64,000 nucleotides of DNA from positions 148,134 to 212,133 of the forward strand of contig NZ_JAAVUW010000009.1 in the NCBI RefSeq assembly GCF_018449605.1. The letters run 5' to 3'. Under the pieces are notes generated by a model, which was not told the DNA's origin, did not search any database, and worked only from the letters and a program-made list of their open reading frames with translations. Positions 35,406-45,362 of the stretch are shown one piece after another. The translations under genes were made by a program, and so were the position numbers. Every line of letters begins with the position of its first letter. Position 1 is the first letter of the stretch. Source of the stretch: Luteibacter sp. dw_328. Lineage in GTDB: Bacteria; Pseudomonadota; Gammaproteobacteria; Xanthomonadales; Rhodanobacteraceae.

Positions 35406-36104
35406 TCAGGTGGCGGGGAAGCGGTAGCCGACGCCGGGTTCGGTTTTGAGCCAGCGCGGTGTGGATGGATCGTCACCCAGTTTGAGGCGGAGCTTGCCCA
35501 TGACGATGCGCAGGTAATGCGTGTCCTGCGTGTGCGTTGCACCCCAGACTTCGCGGAGGATCTGCTGCTGGCTGACGACGCGGCCCGGATGACGGACCAG
35601 GAGCGAGAGGACGGCGAATTCCTTGCGTGTAAGCGCGACCGGCGCGCCATCGAGCAGCACCTCGCGGCGCGCGAGGTCGATCACCAGGCTGCCGTCGTCA
35701 TAGCGCACGGGCGCATCGGCCTGACCACCCTTGGCGCCCTGACGGAGCAACACGCGCAGGCGCGCCATCAGTTCCTGGATGCCGAAGGGCTTGGTCACGT
35801 AATCGTTGGCACCCTGGTCGAGCGCACGCACCTTCTCGCTTTCCGAGTCACGCACGGAGAGCATCAGCACGGGGACTTCGCTCCACGTTCGGATTTCACG
35901 CAACACATCATGGCCTTCCATGTCCGGCAGGCCGATGTCGAGCACGACGACATCCGGCGATTGCGTCACGGCCAGGCCCAGGCCTTCCTGCCCGGTGGCG
36001 GCGAGCAGCACCTGGTAGCCCTCGGCACGCAGGCCGATATCGAGGAAGCGGCGGATCTGCGCTTCGTCGTCGATCACCAGTACTCGTGGAGCGGTGGGGT
36101 TCAT
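35406..36104 (-). CDS. kdpE: KdpE response regulator (OmpR family)
   Basis: DNA-binding response regulator of 232 aa activating the kdp operon under potassium limitation. Receiver domain (residues 1-120) with acidic pair IDDE at 11-14 and phospho-acceptor D56 in VVVLDIGLPD; C-terminal winged helix from about 135 with VALTRKEFAVLSLLVRHPGR and EVWGATHTQDTHYLRIVMGKLR. Its ATG overlaps the kdpD stop (ATGA), so the pair is translationally coupled. Here the regulators are the last genes of the long kdp cluster. Confidence 0.95.
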   Translation of the reverse strand: MNPTAPRVLVIDDEAQIRRFLDIGLRAEGYQVLLAATGQEGLGLAVTQSPDVVVLDIGLPDMEGHDVLREIRTWSEVPVLMLSVRDSESEKVRALDQGANDYVTKPFGIQELMARLRVLLRQGAKGGQADAPVRYDDGSLVIDLARREVLLDGAPVALTRKEFAVLSLLVRHPGRVVSQQQILREVWGATHTQDTHYLRIVMGKLRLKLGDDPSTPRWLKTEPGVGYRFPAT

Positions 36105-38761
36105 GCGTTCTCGGTGGGGGGCGGCGGCAGCGGCAGTGAGACCCGGATGGTCGTGCCTCCGCCCACGTGGGGCAAGGCCTCCACGCTGCCGCCATGCGCG
36201 CCGATCATGCCACGGCAGATCGCCAGGCCCAGCCCGGTCCCCTTGCCGCCGCGGTCGCCGCGCGTCACCGAATAGAACATGTCGAAGATCCGCGCCCGCT
36301 CGTCCTCCGGAATACCCGGACCGCGATCGGCCACGTCCACCAGCAGGCGACCCGCCTCCGAGCGGACCGTGACGCGAATCGGCTCCTCGGGCGGTGTGAA
36401 GCGGCCCGCATTCTCGAGGATATTGAACAACGCCTGCTCGATCAGCGCGGGGTGCACATGCAGGAGCACGGTGTCGGTCGGCAGGTGCATGTCGATCCGC
36501 ACCTCGGGGAATAGCTTGTGCATGCGCGACACGGCGGCGGCGACGATCTCGCCAGCGTCCACCCAGTCACGATGGAGCTGCAGCGTGCCATGGCCAAGAC
36601 GGGTCATGTCGAGCAGGTTCTGGATGTAACGATCGAGACGCTGGCCCTCGCCGAGAATGGCCTGGAGCAGTTCGTGCCGTTCGTTGGCGGGCAGCTGGGC
36701 GTCGTAGCTGAGCAGGGTGCCGGCGGAGCCGATCATCGAGGCCAGCGGGGAGCGCAGGTCGTGTGAGACCGACGAGAGCAGGGCACTGCGCAGGCGTTCG
36801 GTTTCGCCCTGCACGCGCGCGCTTTCCAGTTCGTGCGCGAGGCGCGCCCGATCGAGTGCCTGGCCGATGTCCTGCACCATGGCCAGGGCGAGGCTGCGCC
36901 GGTCGGCATCGGGCTCGCGTGCGCTCAGCGGAAAGCGCAACGCGACGACCCCGGCCCGCTGGTGTTCGGCGCCGAGCGGCAGCATCCAGCAGGAGGCGGC
37001 ATGCAACGTATCGGTGTAGCGGCCTGCCGGCTCGGCATGGCCCTCGCACCAGTCGGCGGCCGCGAGGTCCTGCGTGGATAACGCGAAGGCATCGGGAACC
37101 GAGTTCACGACCTTGAAGTGGCCGCTCTCGTCGCGTGCAAGCATCGCGATCTCGATCGAAAGCGCGCGGGCCAATGCCCCCGCGCCGGCCTTGCGGATGC
37201 TGTCGGCGTCGGCGCTGGTCGCCAGTTGCTGGCCCAGTGCGACCAACGCGCGGGCACGCACCTGTGCAGCGCGCAGCGACGTCACCTGTCCGGCCAGCCG
37301 TGTCGCCAGCCGGCTGCAGACCAGCGCGACGACGAGGAACAGGACGACGGCGAGCACATCATCGGCGTTGGCGATGGCCAGCGTGTAGCGCGGCGGGGCG
37401 AAGAAGAAGTTGTAACCCAGGAAGCAGAGCAGCGCCGTGTACACAGCCACAGCCATGCGCGTACGCACCGCGACGACGAGCACGGCGGTGAGGAAGATCA
37501 ATGAGAGGTTGGCCACCGACAGGAAGCGATCGGCAACGAACGACAACGCCATGGCGATGGCGGTCGCTCCCGTGGCGAACGCGTACTCGCGGCGGGACCC
37601 GCCGCCATCCTTGAAGCGCAGGCGTCGACGTGCGCGAGCGCGTTCGGCCGGCGTGGCGACGATGGTCAGCTCGAGGTGCGCGCCGCGGCGTAGCAGCTGC
37701 TGGGTGAGCGAGAACCCGAGGCGCCGGGCGATCGGCCGCTCGCGGGTACGACCGACGATGATCTGGCCGACGCCTTCGCGATCGGCCCAGGTGAGCAGTT
37801 CATCGGCCACGGCATGGCCGCGCAGGATCACGCCTTCACCACCGAGTCGGCGAGCAAGACGCATCGCGGAATCCACGCGCTCGCGCCGCTCGGCATCGAG
37901 GCCGCCGCGATCGACGAAGACCACGCTCCAGGGTGCGCCACGACGCTCGGCGATGCGTCGAGTAATACGCACGAGATATTCGCTCTGCCCGTGGCCGTCG
38001 ATGGCGGCCATGCAACGGCGGCGCACCGGCATGGCATCGCCACGGGCGAGCATGTGTTCGCGCAGGTCGCTGTCGACATGTGCTGCCACGGTTTCAACAG
38101 CGAGCTCGCGCAGGGCGGCGAGGTTGGTCGGCGAGAAATAGGCATCCAGCGCGACGGCTGCCGTTTCCGGCACATAGACCTTGCCCTGCTTGAGCCGGCC
38201 GATCAGTTCGCGCGGCGGCAGGTCGACCAGCACGATATCGCGTGCCCGGTCGAGGAAGGCGTCGGGCACGGTCTCGCGCACGGCCACGCCGGTGATCCGG
38301 CGGATCTGGTCGTTGAGGCTCTCAAGATGCTGGACATTGAGTGCTGTGTAGACCTCGATGCCGGCATCCAGCAGTTCGGCGATATCCTGCCAGCGGCGCG
38401 TGTGGCGGCCACCGGGAAGATTGGTGTGAGCCAGTTCGTCGACCAGCAACACGGCGGGCCGACGCGCGAGCGCGGCCTCGAGATCGAACTCGCGAAAGTC
38501 GCGTCCGGCATAGCGCACGGGACGGGTCGGCAGCACTTCCAGGCCTTCGACCAGCGCCGCGGTGTCCGAACGCCCGTGGGTTTCGACGAGTCCGACGACC
38601 ACGTCGATGCCCTGGCGTTTCAGATCGCGGGCCGCGGAAAGCATGGCGTAGGTCTTGCCGACACCGGGTGCCGCGCCGAGGAAGACCTTGAGGCGCTGGC
38701 CGTCCTCTTCCTTCGCGGCACTGAGCAGCGCGTTGGCGCGGGCGTCGCGGTCGTCAGTCAT
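36101..38761 (-). CDS. kdpD: KdpD sensor histidine kinase
   Basis: Membrane sensor kinase of 886 aa. The N-terminal KdpD domain has Walker A GAAPGVGKT (29-37) and a USP-like region; then four clustered TM helices (about 400-480, DUF4118), a GAF-like region, the phosphorylation motif SHDLRSP with H667, and an ATPase domain with NILENAGRFTP and GTGLGLAICRG. It phosphorylates KdpE. It is separated from kdpC by a paired repeat of the dispersed family, which may uncouple kdpDE expression from the transporter genes. Confidence 0.95.
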   Translation of the reverse strand: MTDDRDARANALLSAAKEEDGQRLKVFLGAAPGVGKTYAMLSAARDLKRQGIDVVVGLVETHGRSDTAALVEGLEVLPTRPVRYAGRDFREFDLEAALARRPAVLLVDELAHTNLPGGRHTRRWQDIAELLDAGIEVYTALNVQHLESLNDQIRRITGVAVRETVPDAFLDRARDIVLVDLPPRELIGRLKQGKVYVPETAAVALDAYFSPTNLAALRELAVETVAAHVDSDLREHMLARGDAMPVRRRCMAAIDGHGQSEYLVRITRRIAERRGAPWSVVFVDRGGLDAERRERVDSAMRLARRLGGEGVILRGHAVADELLTWADREGVGQIIVGRTRERPIARRLGFSLTQQLLRRGAHLELTIVATPAERARARRRLRFKDGGGSRREYAFATGATAIAMALSFVADRFLSVANLSLIFLTAVLVVAVRTRMAVAVYTALLCFLGYNFFFAPPRYTLAIANADDVLAVVLFLVVALVCSRLATRLAGQVTSLRAAQVRARALVALGQQLATSADADSIRKAGAGALARALSIEIAMLARDESGHFKVVNSVPDAFALSTQDLAAADWCEGHAEPAGRYTDTLHAASCWMLPLGAEHQRAGVVALRFPLSAREPDADRRSLALAMVQDIGQALDRARLAHELESARVQGETERLRSALLSSVSHDLRSPLASMIGSAGTLLSYDAQLPANERHELLQAILGEGQRLDRYIQNLLDMTRLGHGTLQLHRDWVDAGEIVAAAVSRMHKLFPEVRIDMHLPTDTVLLHVHPALIEQALFNILENAGRFTPPEEPIRVTVRSEAGRLLVDVADRGPGIPEDERARIFDMFYSVTRGDRGGKGTGLGLAICRGMIGAHGGSVEALPHVGGGTTIRVSLPLPPPPTENA

Positions 38762-38825
38762 GAGGCGTGGCCGGGGGCGAAGGGTGCATGGGGGAAGGGT
38801 AGCCGATGGGCTGAGGCAAACTGGT

Positions 38826-38892
38826 ATCGCCGATGAATCGGCTCCTACAAGAGCGCGGGCCCGTTCGTTGTAGGAGCCGATTCATCGGCGAT
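38826..38892. repeat. Paired palindromic repeat inside the kdp operon
   Basis: Two inverse units (CGCCGATGAATCGGCTCCTA and its reverse complement) about 20 bp apart lie between kdpC and kdpD. The pair could fold into a long stem in the kdp mRNA and alter the ratio of transporter to regulator transcripts. Confidence 0.85.
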
Positions 38893-38897
38893 GGGTG

Positions 38898-39473
38898 TTA
38901 CCGAGACGCTTGATCAACAGCCAGGTTGAGCTTCAACACATTAACCCGAGGCTCGCCCAGCACACCCAACTGACGCCCTTCGGTATTGGCCGCCACCAAC
39001 TCGCGCAACTTCGCGGGATCCAGGTGCCTTGCCCTGGCCACGCGAGCCAGCTGGTACTCGGCCGCGGCCGGGCTGATCTCCGGATCCAGGCCACTGCCCG
39101 ACGCCGTCACCAGGTCCACCGGCACGGCGGCCTTGTTGAGGGGATCGGCGTCGCGCAGCGCGGCGATGCGATCGCTCGCCGCTTTGGCCAGGGCCGGGTT
39201 GGTCGGGCCCAGGTTCGACGGAGTGGACGCCGCGGCATTGTTCGGGCCCGGCGTGGTCGCCGACGGGCGACCCCAGAAGTAGCCGGGCGCCGTGAACGAC
39301 TGACCGATCAGCGCGGAGCCGACCGGCTTGCCATCACGTTCGACCAGGCTGCCCGCCGCCTGGTGCGGGAACAGCAGGGCCGATAGCCCACCGACCACCG
39401 CCGGATAGGCCACGCCGGTGACCGCGGTCATGAGCAGGAGCAGGACGATGGCGTTACGCAGCAAGGTGGTCAT
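38898..39473 (-). CDS. kdpC: KdpC subunit of the K+-transporting ATPase
   Basis: Membrane-anchored subunit of 191 aa that stabilises nucleotide binding by KdpB. One N-terminal TM helix ([20 protein letters not shown], about residues 9-28), then periplasmic part with [27 protein letters not shown] and the family signature [13 protein letters not shown] followed by [11 protein letters not shown]. It is 9 bp after the porin gene and not next to kdpB, an unusual position. Confidence 0.95.
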
Positions 39474-39482
39474 GGGAGTTCC

Positions 39483-40901
39483 TTAGTAGTGCAGGATCGC
39501 GTCGACGACGGCGGTGGCCTGGTAGTCCTTGCGGCCACCGTTGTATGCATCGACGTCGTAAGACCGGTCGTAACGGATTTCGGGACGGATCTCGAGATCC
39601 GGAGTCACCCAATGGGTCATGCCGAGCGTGTGGCTGGTGTACTTGGTCGGGTACCCGGTGCGCTGACCCTTCTGGTCGTTATAGAACTCGTTGCGGAACG
39701 AGATCATGTTCTTCGGATCCAGTTCGACGTTGAAGTAGTTCACGATCCCGTACTCGCCGGCCTTGCCCGGGAACGGTGACGAGCCAGCGACTTTCGGATC
39801 GAAGTCCTCGCCATAGCCCGGAATGTTGCGGCCGTACATGTAGTACGCCTCGGTGAGCATGTGTACGTTGTCACTGAAGCGATGGCCCCAGGTGGTCACG
39901 TACATCTGCACGTTGTTGTAGTTGTAGTCGGAGTTGTTGAAGCTGTTCACGCAGGGATAGAGCATGTCGTTGTTGTCGGACGACACGTAGCGTACGCAGG
40001 CCTGCAACGTCGGGCGTGCCGAATGGTTCCACACCGCGGTGTCGTTGCCACCGTTGATGCCCACCTGCAATGTCCACTGCTGGTTGAGGCGCGTCGTGGT
40101 CATCACACCCATCTGGGTGTACGGATCCACGGTGTAGAGGATCGAGTGGGTGACCAGATAGTTGTTGGGCGAGAACTGCGCCTCGATGTCCGGCAACGAC
40201 AACCAGCGACCGATGCGGATATCCATGCCTTCGGCAATGTGCGGCAGGTAGATGTCGCCGTAGAACAGCATCGGGTCATAGCCGTAAATCTTGCCGTTGA
40301 GCGGCTCGTTCGGCTTGGGATTGTTGAGAAGCTGGTTGCTGAAGACGCCCTTCGCCGTGGTGAAGTGGTAGTCGTAACCATAGAGGTTATCCAGGTGGAA
40401 GCCCCAGTCCACGTGATCGGTCTGCACGGTGTCGGCCAGGCGCTCGATGCGGAACAGGGCCTGGTTGAACTCGATGCGATTAGGACGCACCGCGTACGAC
40501 ACCGGATAGTTCGTGTGCGAGGACGTGCTCAGGTTGGCCGAGGCATTGAGCCAGCCATACACCTCGATGCGGTTGTCCTTCATCCACTTGCCGACGCTGT
40601 TGCAGGCAAGTGCCTTCTCGAGCGGGTACTGCGAGTTCTCGTTCGGCGCACCGATCGGATAGGGGACGCCACCTAGCTGCCATTCCGCCGAGGGGAACGG
40701 CGGTGACGAGAACGGCGCGGCCATGCCGCGGCGTGCCGGCGCCTCAGCGTTGGGATCGGCCGGCTGGGCATCTTCGCGGTAGGCGGCGGCAAGGCGGCTA
40801 CCGAATCCCTGGGAGCAGTCGTCACTGCCCGAGGCCATGGCCTTGGTGACAGGTGCGAGTGCGAACATGGCGGCGAGGAAAGCATAACGAGTGGTACGCA
40901 T
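39483..40901 (-). CDS. Outer-membrane beta-barrel porin (OmpL/BBP2-like) within the kdp operon
   Basis: 472-aa predicted outer-membrane channel. Signal peptide 1-23 (FLAAMFALAPVTKAMA), an N-terminal Pro/Ala-rich spacer to about residue 100, then a long series of amphipathic strands with IEVYGWLNASANLSTS, DWGFHLDNLYGYDYHF, RIGRWLSLPDIEAQFSP and QMGVMTTTRLNQQW, and a C terminus VVDAILHY ending in an aromatic residue. This resembles the putative porin family PF07642. It lies between the 62-aa gene and kdpC, with 9 bp to kdpC, so it is expressed with the potassium pump and is inferred to let K+ through the outer membrane. The substrate is not proven. Confidence 0.85.
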   Translation of the reverse strand: MRTTRYAFLAAMFALAPVTKAMASGSDDCSQGFGSRLAAAYREDAQPADPNAEAPARRGMAAPFSSPPFPSAEWQLGGVPYPIGAPNENSQYPLEKALACNSVGKWMKDNRIEVYGWLNASANLSTSSHTNYPVSYAVRPNRIEFNQALFRIERLADTVQTDHVDWGFHLDNLYGYDYHFTTAKGVFSNQLLNNPKPNEPLNGKIYGYDPMLFYGDIYLPHIAEGMDIRIGRWLSLPDIEAQFSPNNYLVTHSILYTVDPYTQMGVMTTTRLNQQWTLQVGINGGNDTAVWNHSARPTLQACVRYVSSDNNDMLYPCVNSFNNSDYNYNNVQMYVTTWGHRFSDNVHMLTEAYYMYGRNIPGYGEDFDPKVAGSSPFPGKAGEYGIVNYFNVELDPKNMISFRNEFYNDQKGQRTGYPTKYTSHTLGMTHWVTPDLEIRPEIRYDRSYDVDAYNGGRKDYQATAVVDAILHY

Positions 40902-40975
40902 GGCGTTTTGACCGATCCCTTTCGGGACCCCTTTATCGGTGGAGTGGGTGGGTTGGGCTTTACAGAAGACGGCGT

Positions 40976-41164
40976 TCAGATGCCGGCGTAGCCGCCGAGC
41001 GTGTATTCGTCGTCGTTGGGCGGTGTGACCGGAACCATGCGCGGCTTGATCACCGCGATCGGCGCGCCCGCAACGGCAGCGACGTGTTCCGGGGCGACGA
41101 CGCGGACTTCCATGTCCAGATCGGCGTGGTCTTCGATGAAAACGGTGAGCTTCACGGAATGCAT
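40976..41164 (-). CDS. 62-aa protein of unknown function within the kdp operon
   Basis: Small gene between kdpB and the porin. The product starts MHSVKLTVFIEDHADLDMEV and ends NDDEYTLGGYAGI; it is acidic at both ends, rich in Val/Ala/Pro, and has no signal peptide or membrane helix, so it is predicted cytoplasmic. The start ATG 41164 has GAGG nine bases upstream; it is 13 bp from the kdpB stop and 74 bp from the porin start. Not recognised. Its place in the operon suggests a role in Kdp function, assembly or regulation, which is inference. Confidence 0.7.
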   Translation of the reverse strand: MHSVKLTVFIEDHADLDMEVRVVAPEHVAAVAGAPIAVIKPRMVPVTPPNDDEYTLGGYAGI

Positions 41165-41177
41165 GGGGCGACCTCGG

Positions 41178-43256
41178 TCAGGCGAGTCCAAGAAGGACCA
41201 GCAGCATGTCGATCAACTTGATGCCAATGAAGGGCACGACGATGCCGCCAAGCCCGTAGACGAGCAGATTTCGACGCAGGAGCGCGCCAGCGCCGAGCGC
41301 GCGGTAGGCCACGCCCTTCAGTGCGAGCGGGATGAGACAGATGATGATCAGCGCATTGAAGATCACCGCGGACAGGATCGCGCTGCGTGGCGTGGCCAGG
41401 TTCATGACGTTGAGCGCATTGAGTGCGGGATACGTCGTGGCGAACGCCGCCGGAATGATCGCGAAGTACTTGGCGATATCGTTGGCGATGGAGAACGTGG
41501 TCAGCGAGCCGCGAGTGATCAGCATCTGCTTGCCGATGGCGACGATCTCGATCAGCTTGGTCGGATTGGAATCCAGGTCGACCATGTTGCCGGCTTCTTT
41601 CGCCGCCTGCGTGCCGCTGTTCATCGCCACCGCCACGTCGGCCTGGGCCAGCGCCGGTGCGTCGTTGGTGCCGTCGCCGCACATCGCCACCAGGCGGTTC
41701 TCGGCCTGCATGTCGCGGATGAGCTTGAGCTTGGCTTCCGGCGTCGCCTCGGCGAGGAAGTCGTCGACGCCGGCTTCGGCTGCGATCGCCGCCGCCGTGA
41801 GCGGGTTGTCGCCGGTGATCATGATGGTGCGGATGCCCATCTTGCGCATCTCGGCGAAGCGCTCCTTGATGCCGTCCTTGACGATGTCCTTGAGCTCGAC
41901 CACACCCAGGGTCAGCGCGCCGTCGACCACGATCAGCGGCGTCGCGCCGCGACGGGCAACGTCTTCGGCCATGCGACGAACGAGCGGTGGCAGATGGCTG
42001 TCCTGAGTGTCGAGATAGCGCATGACGGCGTCCATCGCACCCTTGCGGATGTGGCGGGTGCCCACGTCCACACCGCTCATGCGGGTCTGCGCGGTGAACG
42101 GCACGAACTCGGCGCGGCGGTCGTCGTGGCGGCGCTCGCTGACGCTGACGCTGATGTACTTCGCGGCCAGGGTGACGATACTGCGGCCTTCCGGCGTCTC
42201 GTCGGCGCGCGAGGCCAGTTCGGCGGCCTCCGCGAGCTCGCGTTCTTCGATACCCGGGGCGGGGTAGAAGGCCACGGCCTGGCGATTGCCGAGCGTGATC
42301 GTGCCGGTCTTGTCGAGCAGCAGCACGTCCACGTCACCGGCGGCCTCGACCGCGCGGCCCGACGTGGCGATGACGTTGGCGCGGATCATGCGATCCATGC
42401 CGGCGATACCGATGGCCGAGAGCAGGGCGCCGATCGTCGTCGGAATCAGGCAGACCAGTAGCGCGATGAGTACGGTCAGGCTGATCGGCTCGCCCGCGCC
42501 AGCGGCCTGCACGCTGTAGATCGAGTACGGCAGCAGCGTCGCGCAGGCCAGCAGGAAGATCAGGGTGAACTTCGCCAGCAGGATCGTCAGCGCGATCTCG
42601 TTCGGGGTCTTGCGGCGAGAAGCGCCTTCGACCATCGAGATCATGCGGTCTAGGAAGCTCTCGCCAGGGTTGCTGGAGATGCGCACCACGATCCAGTCGG
42701 AGAGCACGCGGGTGCCACCGGTGACCGCGCTGCGGTCGCCGCCGGACTCACGGATCACCGGCGCGGATTCACCAGTGATCGCACTCTCGTCGACGCTGGC
42801 GGCGCCGACCACGATCTCGCCGTCGCCGGGGATGATCTCGCCGGCTTCGACAAGGACGTGATGGCCGAGGCGCAGCTCGCTGGACGGGGTGAAGACAATG
42901 GGCGCCTCGCGGTCCGCGGAAGCGAGCTTCTTCGCCATCACGTCACGACGGGAACCGCGTAGCGCGTCGGCCTGGGCCTTGCCGCGACCTTCCGCCAGCG
43001 CTTCGGCGAAGTTGGCGAACAGCAAGGTGAACCACAACCAGAGGCTGACCCAGAAGATGAACGCGGTCGGCGCTTCGGCGTGACCCGTAAGGGCCTGCAC
43101 CCAGAGCAGCGTGGTGGCCACGCTGCACACGAAGACCACGAACATCACCGGGTTGCGGAACTGCATGCGCGGCGAGAGCTTGCGGAACGCGTCGACGAGG
43201 GCGCGAGTCACCAGCGCGCGATCGAAACCACGCGGGGTATGGGCTTGGGAAGTCAT
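41178..43256 (-). CDS. kdpB: KdpB, catalytic ATPase subunit of the K+ pump
   Basis: P-type ATPase subunit of 692 aa that hydrolyses ATP to drive potassium import through KdpA. TGES at 161-164 (the serine corresponds to the inhibitory phosphorylation site known in E. coli), phosphorylated aspartate D315 in DKTGT (315-319), [14 protein letters not shown], and [20 protein letters not shown]. About seven TM helices, the family number. It starts three bases after the kdpA stop, indicating tight coupling. Confidence 0.97.
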
Positions 43257-43259
43257 GGA

Positions 43260-44981
43260 TCAGTGGCCCGTGGCGGACATCAGTTGTTCGGCGATCGGCC
43301 CAAGGGCGAGTGCCGGGAGGAAGGTCAGTGCGCCGACGACGATGACGACGCAGGCAAGCAGCGTGACGAAGAGCGGTGTATGCGTCGGCAGCGTGCCAGC
43401 GGTTTCCGGCACGTGGCGCTTGGCAGCCAGCGAGCCGGCCATGGCGAGCATCGCGATCGCCAGCGGGAAGCGGGCGAGGAACATGCAGATGGCCAGCAAC
43501 ACGTTCCAGAAGGGCGTATTGGCGGACAAACCACCGAACGCGCTGCCGTTGTTGTTCGCCGCCGAGCTCACCGCATAGAGGATCTCGCTGAAGCCGTGGG
43601 CACCCGGGTTAGCCACCGCCGCTGTGCCGGCCGGCGTCATCACCGCGATGGCCGTGCAGATCACCACCAGGGCACAGGGAATCAGTACGGCGAGGCTCGC
43701 CATCTTCATCTCGTGCGCTTCGATCTTCTTGCCGAGGTATTCCGGTGTACGACCCACCATCAGCCCGGCAATGAACACCGCGACCACAGCGAAGGCGAGC
43801 ATGCCGTACAGACCCGAGCCGACACCGCCGAAGATCACTTCACCCAGCTGCATCAGCCACATGGGCACGAGGCCACCGAGCGGCGTGAGCGAGTCGTGGG
43901 CGGCGTTCACCGCGCCGCAGGACGCTGCCGTCGTGATGGCGGCGAACAACCCGGACGCGGCGATGCCGAAGCGCGTCTCCTTGCCTTCCATGTTGCCGCC
44001 GGCCTGCGTGGCCGAGGCCTGCGCGTCGATGGCCAACCCGTGCAGCGCCGGGTTACCGGCCTGTTCGGCGGCTACGAGTCCCAGCGTCAGCGGGACGAAA
44101 ATAAGCAGCATGGTGGCGAGCAGCGCCCAGCCCTGGCGGCGATCGCCGACCATGCTGCCGAAGGTGTAGCAAAGTGACGCCGGAACAAGAAAGATCGCCA
44201 GCATCTCGACGAAGTTGGAGAACGGCGTCGGATTCTCGAACGGATGCGCGGAGTTGGCGTTGAAAAAGCCACCGCCATTGGTGCCGAGCATCTTGATCGC
44301 GATCTGCGACGCCGCCGGACCCATCGGCAAGGTCTGCTGGCCGTGCTGCAGGGTCGCGACGTCGACATAGGCCGACACGTTCTGCACCACACCCTGCGAA
44401 ACCAGCAACAGGGCGATCACCAGGGAAAACGGAATGAGCACGTAGAGCGTGGCCCGGGTCATGTCGACCCAGAAGTTGCCCACCGCTGCGACGCCGCGAC
44501 GGCTGAAGCCACGGATGACCGCGATCAGCACGGCGATGCCAGTCGCCGCCGACAGGAAGTTCTGCACCGCCAGGCCGATCGCCTGGGTGAAGTAGCTCAT
44601 CGTCGACTCGCCGGCGTAACCCTGCCAGTTCGTGTTCGTCGCGAAACTCACCGCGGTGTTCATCGCCGAATCCGGCGTGATCGCACCGAAGTGCTGCGGG
44701 TTCAGCGGCAACCACTGCTGCGTGCGCTGGAGGATGTAGACGACGGCGAGGCCGGCTACGTTGAAGACCAGCATGGCGATGGCGTAGCGCTTCCAGCTCA
44801 TGTCCTCGTCGGCGCGGATGCCCGACAGACGATAGAGCAGGTTTTCGGCGCGGGCGCCGAAGCGGTTCACGCGGTTGGGCGTCTCGGCGAACACCTGGGC
44901 CATGTAGTGGCCCATGGGTTTCACCAGCACGAGGAGGACGGCCAGGTACAGGCCGACCTGGAAGAAGTCGTTCGCGGTCAT
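43260..44981 (-). CDS. kdpA: KdpA, potassium channel-like subunit
   Basis: Integral membrane subunit of 573 aa that selects and conducts K+. Four pore loops are visible: [13 protein letters not shown] near 115, [19 protein letters not shown] near 230, [18 protein letters not shown] near 340 and [13 protein letters not shown] near 465, the four selectivity-filter blocks of KdpA. ATG at 44981 is chosen ([13 protein letters not shown]) with GGAG eight bases upstream; a GTG three codons earlier is in frame but lies inside kdpF. The start overlaps the kdpF stop (ATGA). Confidence 0.97.
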
Positions 44982-45070
44982 TCGAACCACTCCGGCTTCA
45001 ACAGGGCGACGCAGAGGTAACCGGTCAGGGCCACCGCAACCACGGTGGCGATAAGCAGGACAAGGGACAT
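44978..45070 (-). CDS. kdpF: KdpF, small stabilising subunit of the K+ pump
   Basis: 30-aa single-helix membrane peptide beginning [19 protein letters not shown] and ending ALLKPEWFE, the highly typical KdpF C terminus. It stabilises the KdpABC complex in other bacteria. GGAG lies six bases before the ATG, and its TGA overlaps the kdpA ATG. Confidence 0.93.
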
Positions 45071-45080
45071 GGCGGGCTCC

Positions 45081-45200
45081 TCAGCGACGACCGAGACGGT
45101 CGCAAATCATGAGGAAGCCGATCGTCAGCGCCGTAAGGGCGACAACGAGAAGGACGTACAGGAGTTCCACGGGTGCATTCCGTCGAAGAAGACGGCGCAT
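45081..45200 (-). CDS. 39-aa single-pass membrane protein at the head of the kdp operon
   Basis: Short protein starting MRRLLRRNAPVELLYVLLVV with one TM helix (about residues 12-32) and a C terminus ending MICDRLGRR. GGGAG lies five bases before ATG 45200. Positively charged N terminus predicts an N-in helix. It ends 10 bp before kdpF. Comparable tiny helix proteins precede kdpF in many proteobacterial kdp operons (recalled knowledge, not tested); their role is not known. Confidence 0.75.
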   Translation of the reverse strand: MRRLLRRNAPVELLYVLLVVALTALTIGFLMICDRLGRR

Positions 45201-45282: not shown

Positions 45283-45362
45283 TGTAGGAGCCGATTCATC
45301 GGCGAAAAGCCAACGAAGCGGCCTAGCCGGAACGCCAATCGCCGATAAATCGGCTCCTACAA
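45283..45362. repeat. Paired palindromic repeat, outward orientation
   Basis: The left unit reads TAGGAGCCGATTCATCGGCG and the right unit CGCCGATAAATCGGCTCCTA, i.e. the opposite order to the other pairs in the window. The right unit has one changed core base (GATAAATC). Located between the S9 peptidase 3' end and the kdp promoter. Confidence 0.8.

Follow-up and report, generated by a model that had tools for sequence, protein, structure and literature searches.

A Luteibacter kdp operon with a predicted outer-membrane porin gene and a small-protein gene between kdpB and kdpC: a possible K+ supply across both membranes

We examined a 64,000-nucleotide stretch of Luteibacter sp. dw_328 (hereafter the window; all coordinates refer to it), in which a kdp cluster for the K+-transporting ATPase occupies the minus strand from 35406 to 45200. 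Two genes are placed between kdpB and kdpC: one for a 62-aa protein, here called s62 (40976..41164), and one for a predicted outer-membrane porin of the BBP2 type (PF07642; 39483..40901). We consider it moderately likely, judging from gene content and comparison of genomes, that this cluster supplies both membranes under K+ scarcity, by a pump together with a predicted outer-membrane pore. The initial annotation of this DNA had proposed such an outer-membrane arm of Kdp and suggested a comparison of related genomes; in that comparison, the porin and the 62-aa gene proved to be kept in much of Rhodanobacteraceae.

Ninety-seven Rhodanobacteraceae genomes were searched for BBP2, KdpA, s62, and a second barrel family, TorF/Gcw_chp, and the positions were combined, with genes within 7 kb of each other counted as linked. 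After one fragment (G025 C72) was dropped from the 77 kdpA matches, 76 copies in 70 genomes remained, and 69 of these had an outer-membrane protein (OMP) gene of either family in linkage. BBP2 was linked to 34 copies and TorF/Gcw_chp to 37, including 2 copies with both barrels. Sorted by neighbours, 29 kdpA copies had BBP2 and s62, 3 had BBP2 without s62, 11 had Gcw_chp and s62, 24 had Gcw_chp without s62, 2 had both barrels and s62, and 7 had none. When 6 weak matches were removed from the 50 BBP2 matches, 34 of the 44 strong ones lay near kdpA, where about 0.16 would be expected under random placement; for Gcw_chp, 37 of 109 matches did so.

Three of the seven kdpA copies without a barrel were cut by contig ends (G040, G025, and G028 C74), and in G040, kdpB and s62 sit with BBP2 on another contig. 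Three others (G028 C156, G021, and G002) are further kdp copies in genomes that also hold an OMP-bearing copy, and the last belongs to a Luteibacter (G062) with a divergent kdp. Divergent kdp operons ordered kdpA-kdpC-kdpB-s62-BBP2 were seen at L105, L126, and L164, and Rhodanobacter sp. DHG33 carries the last of these plus a canonical kdp operon that includes s62 and BBP2 (L149). Some divergent operons of the family have Gcw_chp upstream of kdpA (L198, L210, L213, and L214); two (L211 and L212) have no Gcw_chp at that upstream place.

The TorF family (TIGR02001/PF09694, about 268 aa) is unrelated to BBP2 and fills the same operon slot in relatives. Indeed, in two Luteibacter loci without the BBP2 porin (L089 and L094), a TorF-family protein of 268 or 269 aa lies in the slot between s62 and kdpC, that of L089 scoring 130 bits to the family, and L091 has a reading frame like theirs in the same slot. 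The window's genome gave no Gcw_chp/TorF match. On a FastTree tree of KdpB from 108 loci, 90 of them different, at least 13 changes of the BBP2/Gcw label are needed across the 90 loci, and the well-supported branches alone force at least 12 changes when either label is set against all other rows. Among the 82 non-divergent loci of the tree, 81 carry BBP2 or Gcw_chp and the remaining one (L174) ends at a contig cut; L107, which is labelled as having neither despite a BBP2 match, is not among the 82. The tree loci are not random, being partly chosen for a linked porin or s62, and the 97-genome count is the unbiased sample. The two barrels also occur in tandem, in Dyella tabacisoli (L096/L146) and at L125. 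Because unrelated barrels alternate, the activity of an outer-membrane pore, and not one particular protein, appears to be what is selected; this is our strongest argument, and it speaks for a functional role of an outer-membrane pore in these Kdp systems, with K+ presumably passing through it. Since the linkage is conserved and TorF/Gcw_chp usually replaces an absent BBP2, the outer-membrane arm of Kdp is supported in part.

The gene for the 62-aa protein is likewise linked to kdp. The protein consists of a conserved N-terminal segment, a variable linker, and a near-invariant C-terminal tail, [DN][DE]xYxLGGYAGI. A search with the single sequence returned 59 relatives, most of the named ones from Luteibacter; the names outside the family were Xanthomonas sp. 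NCPPB 2632 and Bacillus sp. NP157, of which at least the latter is misleading. A profile of 24 sequences gave 746 matches among 3938 candidates (E<=1), and the named ones among the best 120 were Dyella and Rhodanobacter. Scanning one genome per species for YxLGGYAGI yielded 103 stretches, 51 of which were s62 relatives by tblastn, with record titles of Luteibacter, Dyella, Rhodanobacter, Frateuria, and two family-level names including 'Lysobacteraceae bacterium REEB105'. All 51 were kdp loci, and the next gene was BBP2 in 40, Gcw_chp in 9, both in 1, and cut off in 1. In a sample of the order, s62 was found in 16 of 151 genomes, all of them Rhodanobacteraceae. In the family sample it was found in 44 of the 97 genomes, namely in 44 of the 70 with kdpA versus 0 of the 27 without (Fisher P 1.4e-9, kinship ignored), and 42 of 45 s62-family matches lay within 7 kb of kdpA. 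Furthermore, s62 is retained in loci where BBP2 is swapped for Gcw_chp. The protein had no Pfam match up to E 10 and no NCBIfam match up to E 1.

The porin of the window scored 122.1 bits against PF07642 (cut-off 26.2), with 337 of the 339 model positions covered. Its AlphaFold2 model shows a 16-strand barrel following about 110 N-terminal residues with short helices; this extension ahead of the barrel domain, together with the attachment to kdp, distinguishes it from the BBP2 family as described by PF07642. The top Foldseek matches of the model were Omp32, BpsOmp38, and DcaP, with E near 1e-12 to general porins in the PDB, and the protein is accordingly a predicted beta-barrel. The mean net charge was -13.5 in kdp-linked BBP2 proteins (23 of the 34) and -8.3 in unlinked ones (7 of the 10 strong matches). 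Acidic charge was considered as a K+ signature and rejected, because similar unlinked BBP2 proteins were as acidic as the linked ones. A search of plasmids with the porin matched 4 records at 24-26% identity.

Beyond the family, we used a phylum sample of 200 genomes, 68 of which had a substantial kdpA match and 66 of these lay outside Rhodanobacteraceae; the removal of short kdpA fragments took out one genome of 69 (G492), and Gcw_chp positions were taken only for kdpA genomes. Gcw_chp was within 7 kb of kdpA in 9 of the 66, spread over five families, and BBP2 was near kdpA in 0 of the 66. The gene order could be resolved in five of the nine loci, as kdpC-gcw-kdpD in L261, L263, L264, and L268 and as kdpB-gcw-kdpD in L267, and these five had no s62 match among open reading frames (ORFs) of at least 50 aa. 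In a class sample, BBP2 was near kdpA in 1 of 18 non-family kdpA genomes (G136/L240), ordered kdpC-BBP2-kdpD; for Gcw_chp, that sample was examined solely with phmmer, using the Luteibacter protein as query against an incomplete greedy ORF list, so that a Gcw gene may have been overlooked.

Taken together, these findings suggest the following course of events. A K+-starved cell would produce the inner-membrane KdpFABC at the same time as a way for K+ to enter through the outer membrane, with KdpDE switching on the whole cluster from one transcript. The pore would pass K+ and so raise the periplasmic supply at micromolar external K+, while the hairpin ahead of the porin gene, described below, might set or protect the porin part of the message. 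The s62 protein, which has no signal peptide by eye, would likely be a small cytoplasmic trans-acting adaptor with two conserved ends and a variable linker, its invariant tail docking on a partner within the Kdp system. A bolder version, which we offer as speculation and hold improbable as a whole, is trans-envelope K+ uptake in which pump and pore form one regulon, either barrel serves, and s62 is a new type of regulator whose LGGYAGI tail couples pore production to the pump or to K+ status. That K+ crosses the outer membrane is usually assumed without question; if the proposal is true, growth at micromolar K+ can be limited at this step, and the step has been selected as part of the Kdp system. 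The s62 family adds a small protein that is apparently undescribed and open to experiment, with seven nearly invariant residues at its end.

Several observations weigh against this picture. Given the tandem-barrel loci, the ancestor may have had both barrels, with one or the other lost repeatedly, instead of repeated replacement; under gain or loss alike, a barrel is kept. Neither barrel family lay within 7 kb of kdpA in 57 of the 66 non-family kdpA genomes (contig ends not considered), and the Kdp system of E. coli functions with general porins; hence a dedicated pore is not generally needed. The s62 gene is missing in 26 of the 70 kdpA genomes, so that it is not essential to Kdp, and joint changes of s62 and BBP2 on the KdpB tree were too few for significance (median p 0.125). 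The arrangement in G062 described below connects the s62 tail no less with the porin than with Kdp. Confidence in the porin model is modest (predicted local distance difference test score, pLDDT, 64.8; predicted template modelling score, pTM, 0.69), and three unlinked BBP2 proteins of similar length and C-terminus are equally acidic (-13 to -16). The predicted model of s62 was poor (pLDDT 62), and this structure was set aside as unfit for use.

The most durable alternative is that the pore serves an anion, an osmolyte, or another nutrient under K+ scarcity, or replaces general porins in an envelope response. We know of no substrates for the BBP2 and TorF families. Fold comparison lends this alternative something, since the top matches include the anion-selective Omp32 type (1e54 and 2fgq), though at about 8% identity, whereas the net negative charge of the porins suits cations over anions. 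In Kuenenia, a BBP2 porin increases when ammonium is limiting (PMC7438415), so members of the family may serve different ions. The link of strong BBP2 matches is nevertheless specific to kdp, and it is at kdp that two unrelated barrels alternate. We therefore regard another substrate as possible but rather unlikely.

A second alternative concerns s62, which might be a leader peptide whose translation, or stalling at its tail, controls how the downstream pore gene is translated or how stable its message is, with hairpins as part of the switch. Regulatory leader peptides ahead of porin genes, such as arrest peptides, form a known class, which s62 resembles in being a short ORF with a fixed tail ahead of an OMP gene; it differs in its conserved N-terminal protein part and in having copies away from any OMP gene. 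The placement agrees with a leader in that s62 stands directly ahead of an OMP gene in 50 of the 51 loci found by the motif, and so does the near-invariant tail beside a free linker. Selection on the protein speaks otherwise. From 70 distinct s62 genes (796 pairs, 60-97% identical), the ratio of nonsynonymous to synonymous substitution rates (dN/dS) came to 0.075 over residues 2-24; the linker gave 0.40 and the tail 0.17, the tail with a low dS of 0.46. Hence s62 appears to be a real protein with residues 2-24 under strong purifying selection, and selection is not confined to the tail. Furthermore, not all members are upstream of an OMP gene: an orphan paralogue has none nearby (G052, L197), and another copy, ending LGGYADI, lies between kdpC and kdpD, ahead of kdpD (G026, L198). 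These two copies favour a role in trans. Because of the N-terminal constraint and the two copies that lie apart from any OMP gene start, we favour, with low confidence, a trans-acting adaptor over a leader peptide, which we think doubtful; a function of s62 as an accessory or regulatory factor, as the initial annotation proposed, is plausible.

The Luteibacter with the divergent kdp (G062) touches on the same question. Away from its kdp, a short ORF that has just the s62 tail (L093:6695-6865) is followed by a GC hairpin and then BBP2, and this may be what remains of a lost kdp operon. The retention of the tail alone ahead of an orphan BBP2 gene would also suit a leader peptide.

A double-glycine peptide and an SsrA-like degron were also considered as readings of the tail and set aside. 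The nucleotide level of the tail was informative as well. In 69 of 70 genes the tail encodes its Ala as GCC, and none of 61 invariant kdpB Ala columns is as fixed; the first Gly codon is GGC in 66 of 70 and the loop Gly codon is GGC in 36 of 70. Over eight tail positions, mean codon fixation exceeded that of matched kdpB codons (P 0.012), which favours the leader peptide, while the Leu, second Gly, and Ile codons were no more fixed than usual and Tyr could be compared with 3 columns only. The third-base pattern fits a possible 5-bp RNA hairpin, CGGCG-GCTA-CGCCG, in the last s62 codons (40984..40997, minus strand; stem drawn by eye).

A second hairpin, GGUCCC-GAAA-GGGAUC (40914..40929, minus strand), ends 12 nt ahead of the porin ATG, and a conserved hairpin at this place again accords with a leader-controlled switch. 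Of 70 s62 loci, 67 had an OMP start; 14 were removed because they were Gcw gaps, had misplaced starts, or were BBP2 loci whose hairpin or start was unclear (e.g. L097, L099, and L106), leaving 53, or 40 without near-copies, of which 24 entered the count of pairs. In the 40 s62-BBP2 gaps, the best stem had 5-9 pairs, mostly G-C, and ended 7-32 nt ahead of the porin ATG, with varying sequence; the observed median stem score was reached by 6% of shuffled stretches. In the 24 aligned gaps (66 columns), 84% of cells paired versus a shuffled mean of 81%, a value reached in 10 of 500 shuffles, and pairing fell to 19-54% when the alignment was slid by 1-3 columns. There were 8 double-change cells against 3.5 in shuffles, a number that 1 of 500 shuffles reached, and the pairs with double changes (2) and the further pair types (4) showed no excess over shuffles in these 24 gaps. 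The window's own stem is one column out of register in this alignment. In most single minimum-energy folds, the Shine-Dalgarno region of the porin gene appeared by eye to be unpaired and outside the hairpin, which may speak against a leader-controlled switch. Four Luteibacter Gcw loci (L089, L094, L134, and L138) have a gap of 15-28 nt and no hairpin, which also disagrees with a leader, yet L141, L158, and L160 have 59-68 nt with a stem. We infer that the hairpin ahead of the porin may be a processing or stability element. An Rfam search of 30000-55000 found nothing at gathering level, and 40800-41300 gave one match only, at chance level.

That an OMP gene entered the operon once and was inherited by chance or hitch-hiking, without a function in K+ uptake, would fit the many non-family kdpA genomes lacking a nearby barrel and the fact that operon membership alone is no proof of function, but it is very improbable given the repeated barrel-type changes with a barrel retained, the s62 and BBP2 genes in the divergent kdpA-kdpC-kdpB lineage as well (L105, L126, and L164), and the same association in five other families.

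BBP2 beside kdp is already in print: in Leptospirillum, a predicted BBP2 porin downstream of kdpABC was suggested to be linked to K+ regulation (PMC7231039). The porin there adjoins a gadC permease and a kinase/regulator pair, and no s62 is described in the passages of that report on this locus, whereas in the window the porin lies inside the operon with s62. Our search of open-licence full-text literature found no report of TorF/BBP2 alternation or of s62, and the barrel swap and s62 are apparently undescribed.

The remaining genes of the cluster, all on the minus strand, were as follows. The kdpF gene (44978..45070) matched TIGR02115 with 34.9 bits, above the cut-off, and kdpA (43260..44990 from GTG, or 44981 from ATG) matched PF03814 with 823 bits. 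The kdpB gene (41178..43256) was assigned from generic P-type ATPase domains and position, and its stop is 13 nt from the s62 start. After the porin gene come kdpC (38898..39473; PF02669, 248 bits), kdpD (36101..38761; PF02702, 303 bits), and kdpE (35406..36104), the last assigned from generic response-regulator domains (PF00072 and PF00486) and position and overlapping the kdpD stop by 4 nt. KdpA, KdpB, KdpC, KdpD, and KdpE were thus all recognised, as expected for the subunits and regulators of a Kdp K+-ATPase operon. The cluster shares KdpF and KdpA to KdpE, on one strand, with the kdpFABC-kdpDE operon of the E. coli type, and differs in that s62 and the porin gene split kdpB from kdpC and that an extra micro-ORF precedes kdpF.

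The initial annotation had given this gene order on one strand and the split of kdpB from kdpC, and both were borne out by the coordinates. Contrary to its short gaps, the kdpC-kdpD gap is 136 bp and contains an inverted pair (38827..38891, minus strand) resembling repetitive extragenic palindromes (REP), so that kdpDE may be partly uncoupled from the upstream genes. The cluster is probably a single operon. A scan for sigma-70 promoters found none.

The micro-ORF upstream of kdpF (45081..45200, minus strand) was called as 39 aa with a single transmembrane (TM) segment. Its relatives start MDVIYLLF and end CDRLGRR. Because they begin M-D-x-x-YLL where the window reads GTG GAA CTC CTG TAC, translation probably starts at that GTG, giving a product of about 29 aa, VELLYVLLVVALTALTIGFLMICDRLGRR; the helix protein of the initial annotation is therefore present and probably shorter than the 39 aa then given. 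A tblastn match to the micro-ORF lay less than 600 nt from kdpA in 68 of 90 loci, and among the 22 matches listed, that of L102 looks unrelated. A plasmid search with the 39-aa ORF gave no matches. The peptide, with its single TM segment and CDRLGRR end, may be an extra small Kdp subunit alongside KdpF. Outside the family, an ORF of 84-85 aa that probably has one TM segment lies immediately ahead of kdpA in L262 and L264.

Finally, the REP-like element TAGGAGCCGATTCATCGGCGA (<=3 mismatches) had 16 matches in the window, many as inverted pairs, and 0 in 100 shuffles. Matches flank kdp genes at 45285-45359, upstream of the cluster, as well as in the kdpC-kdpD gap.

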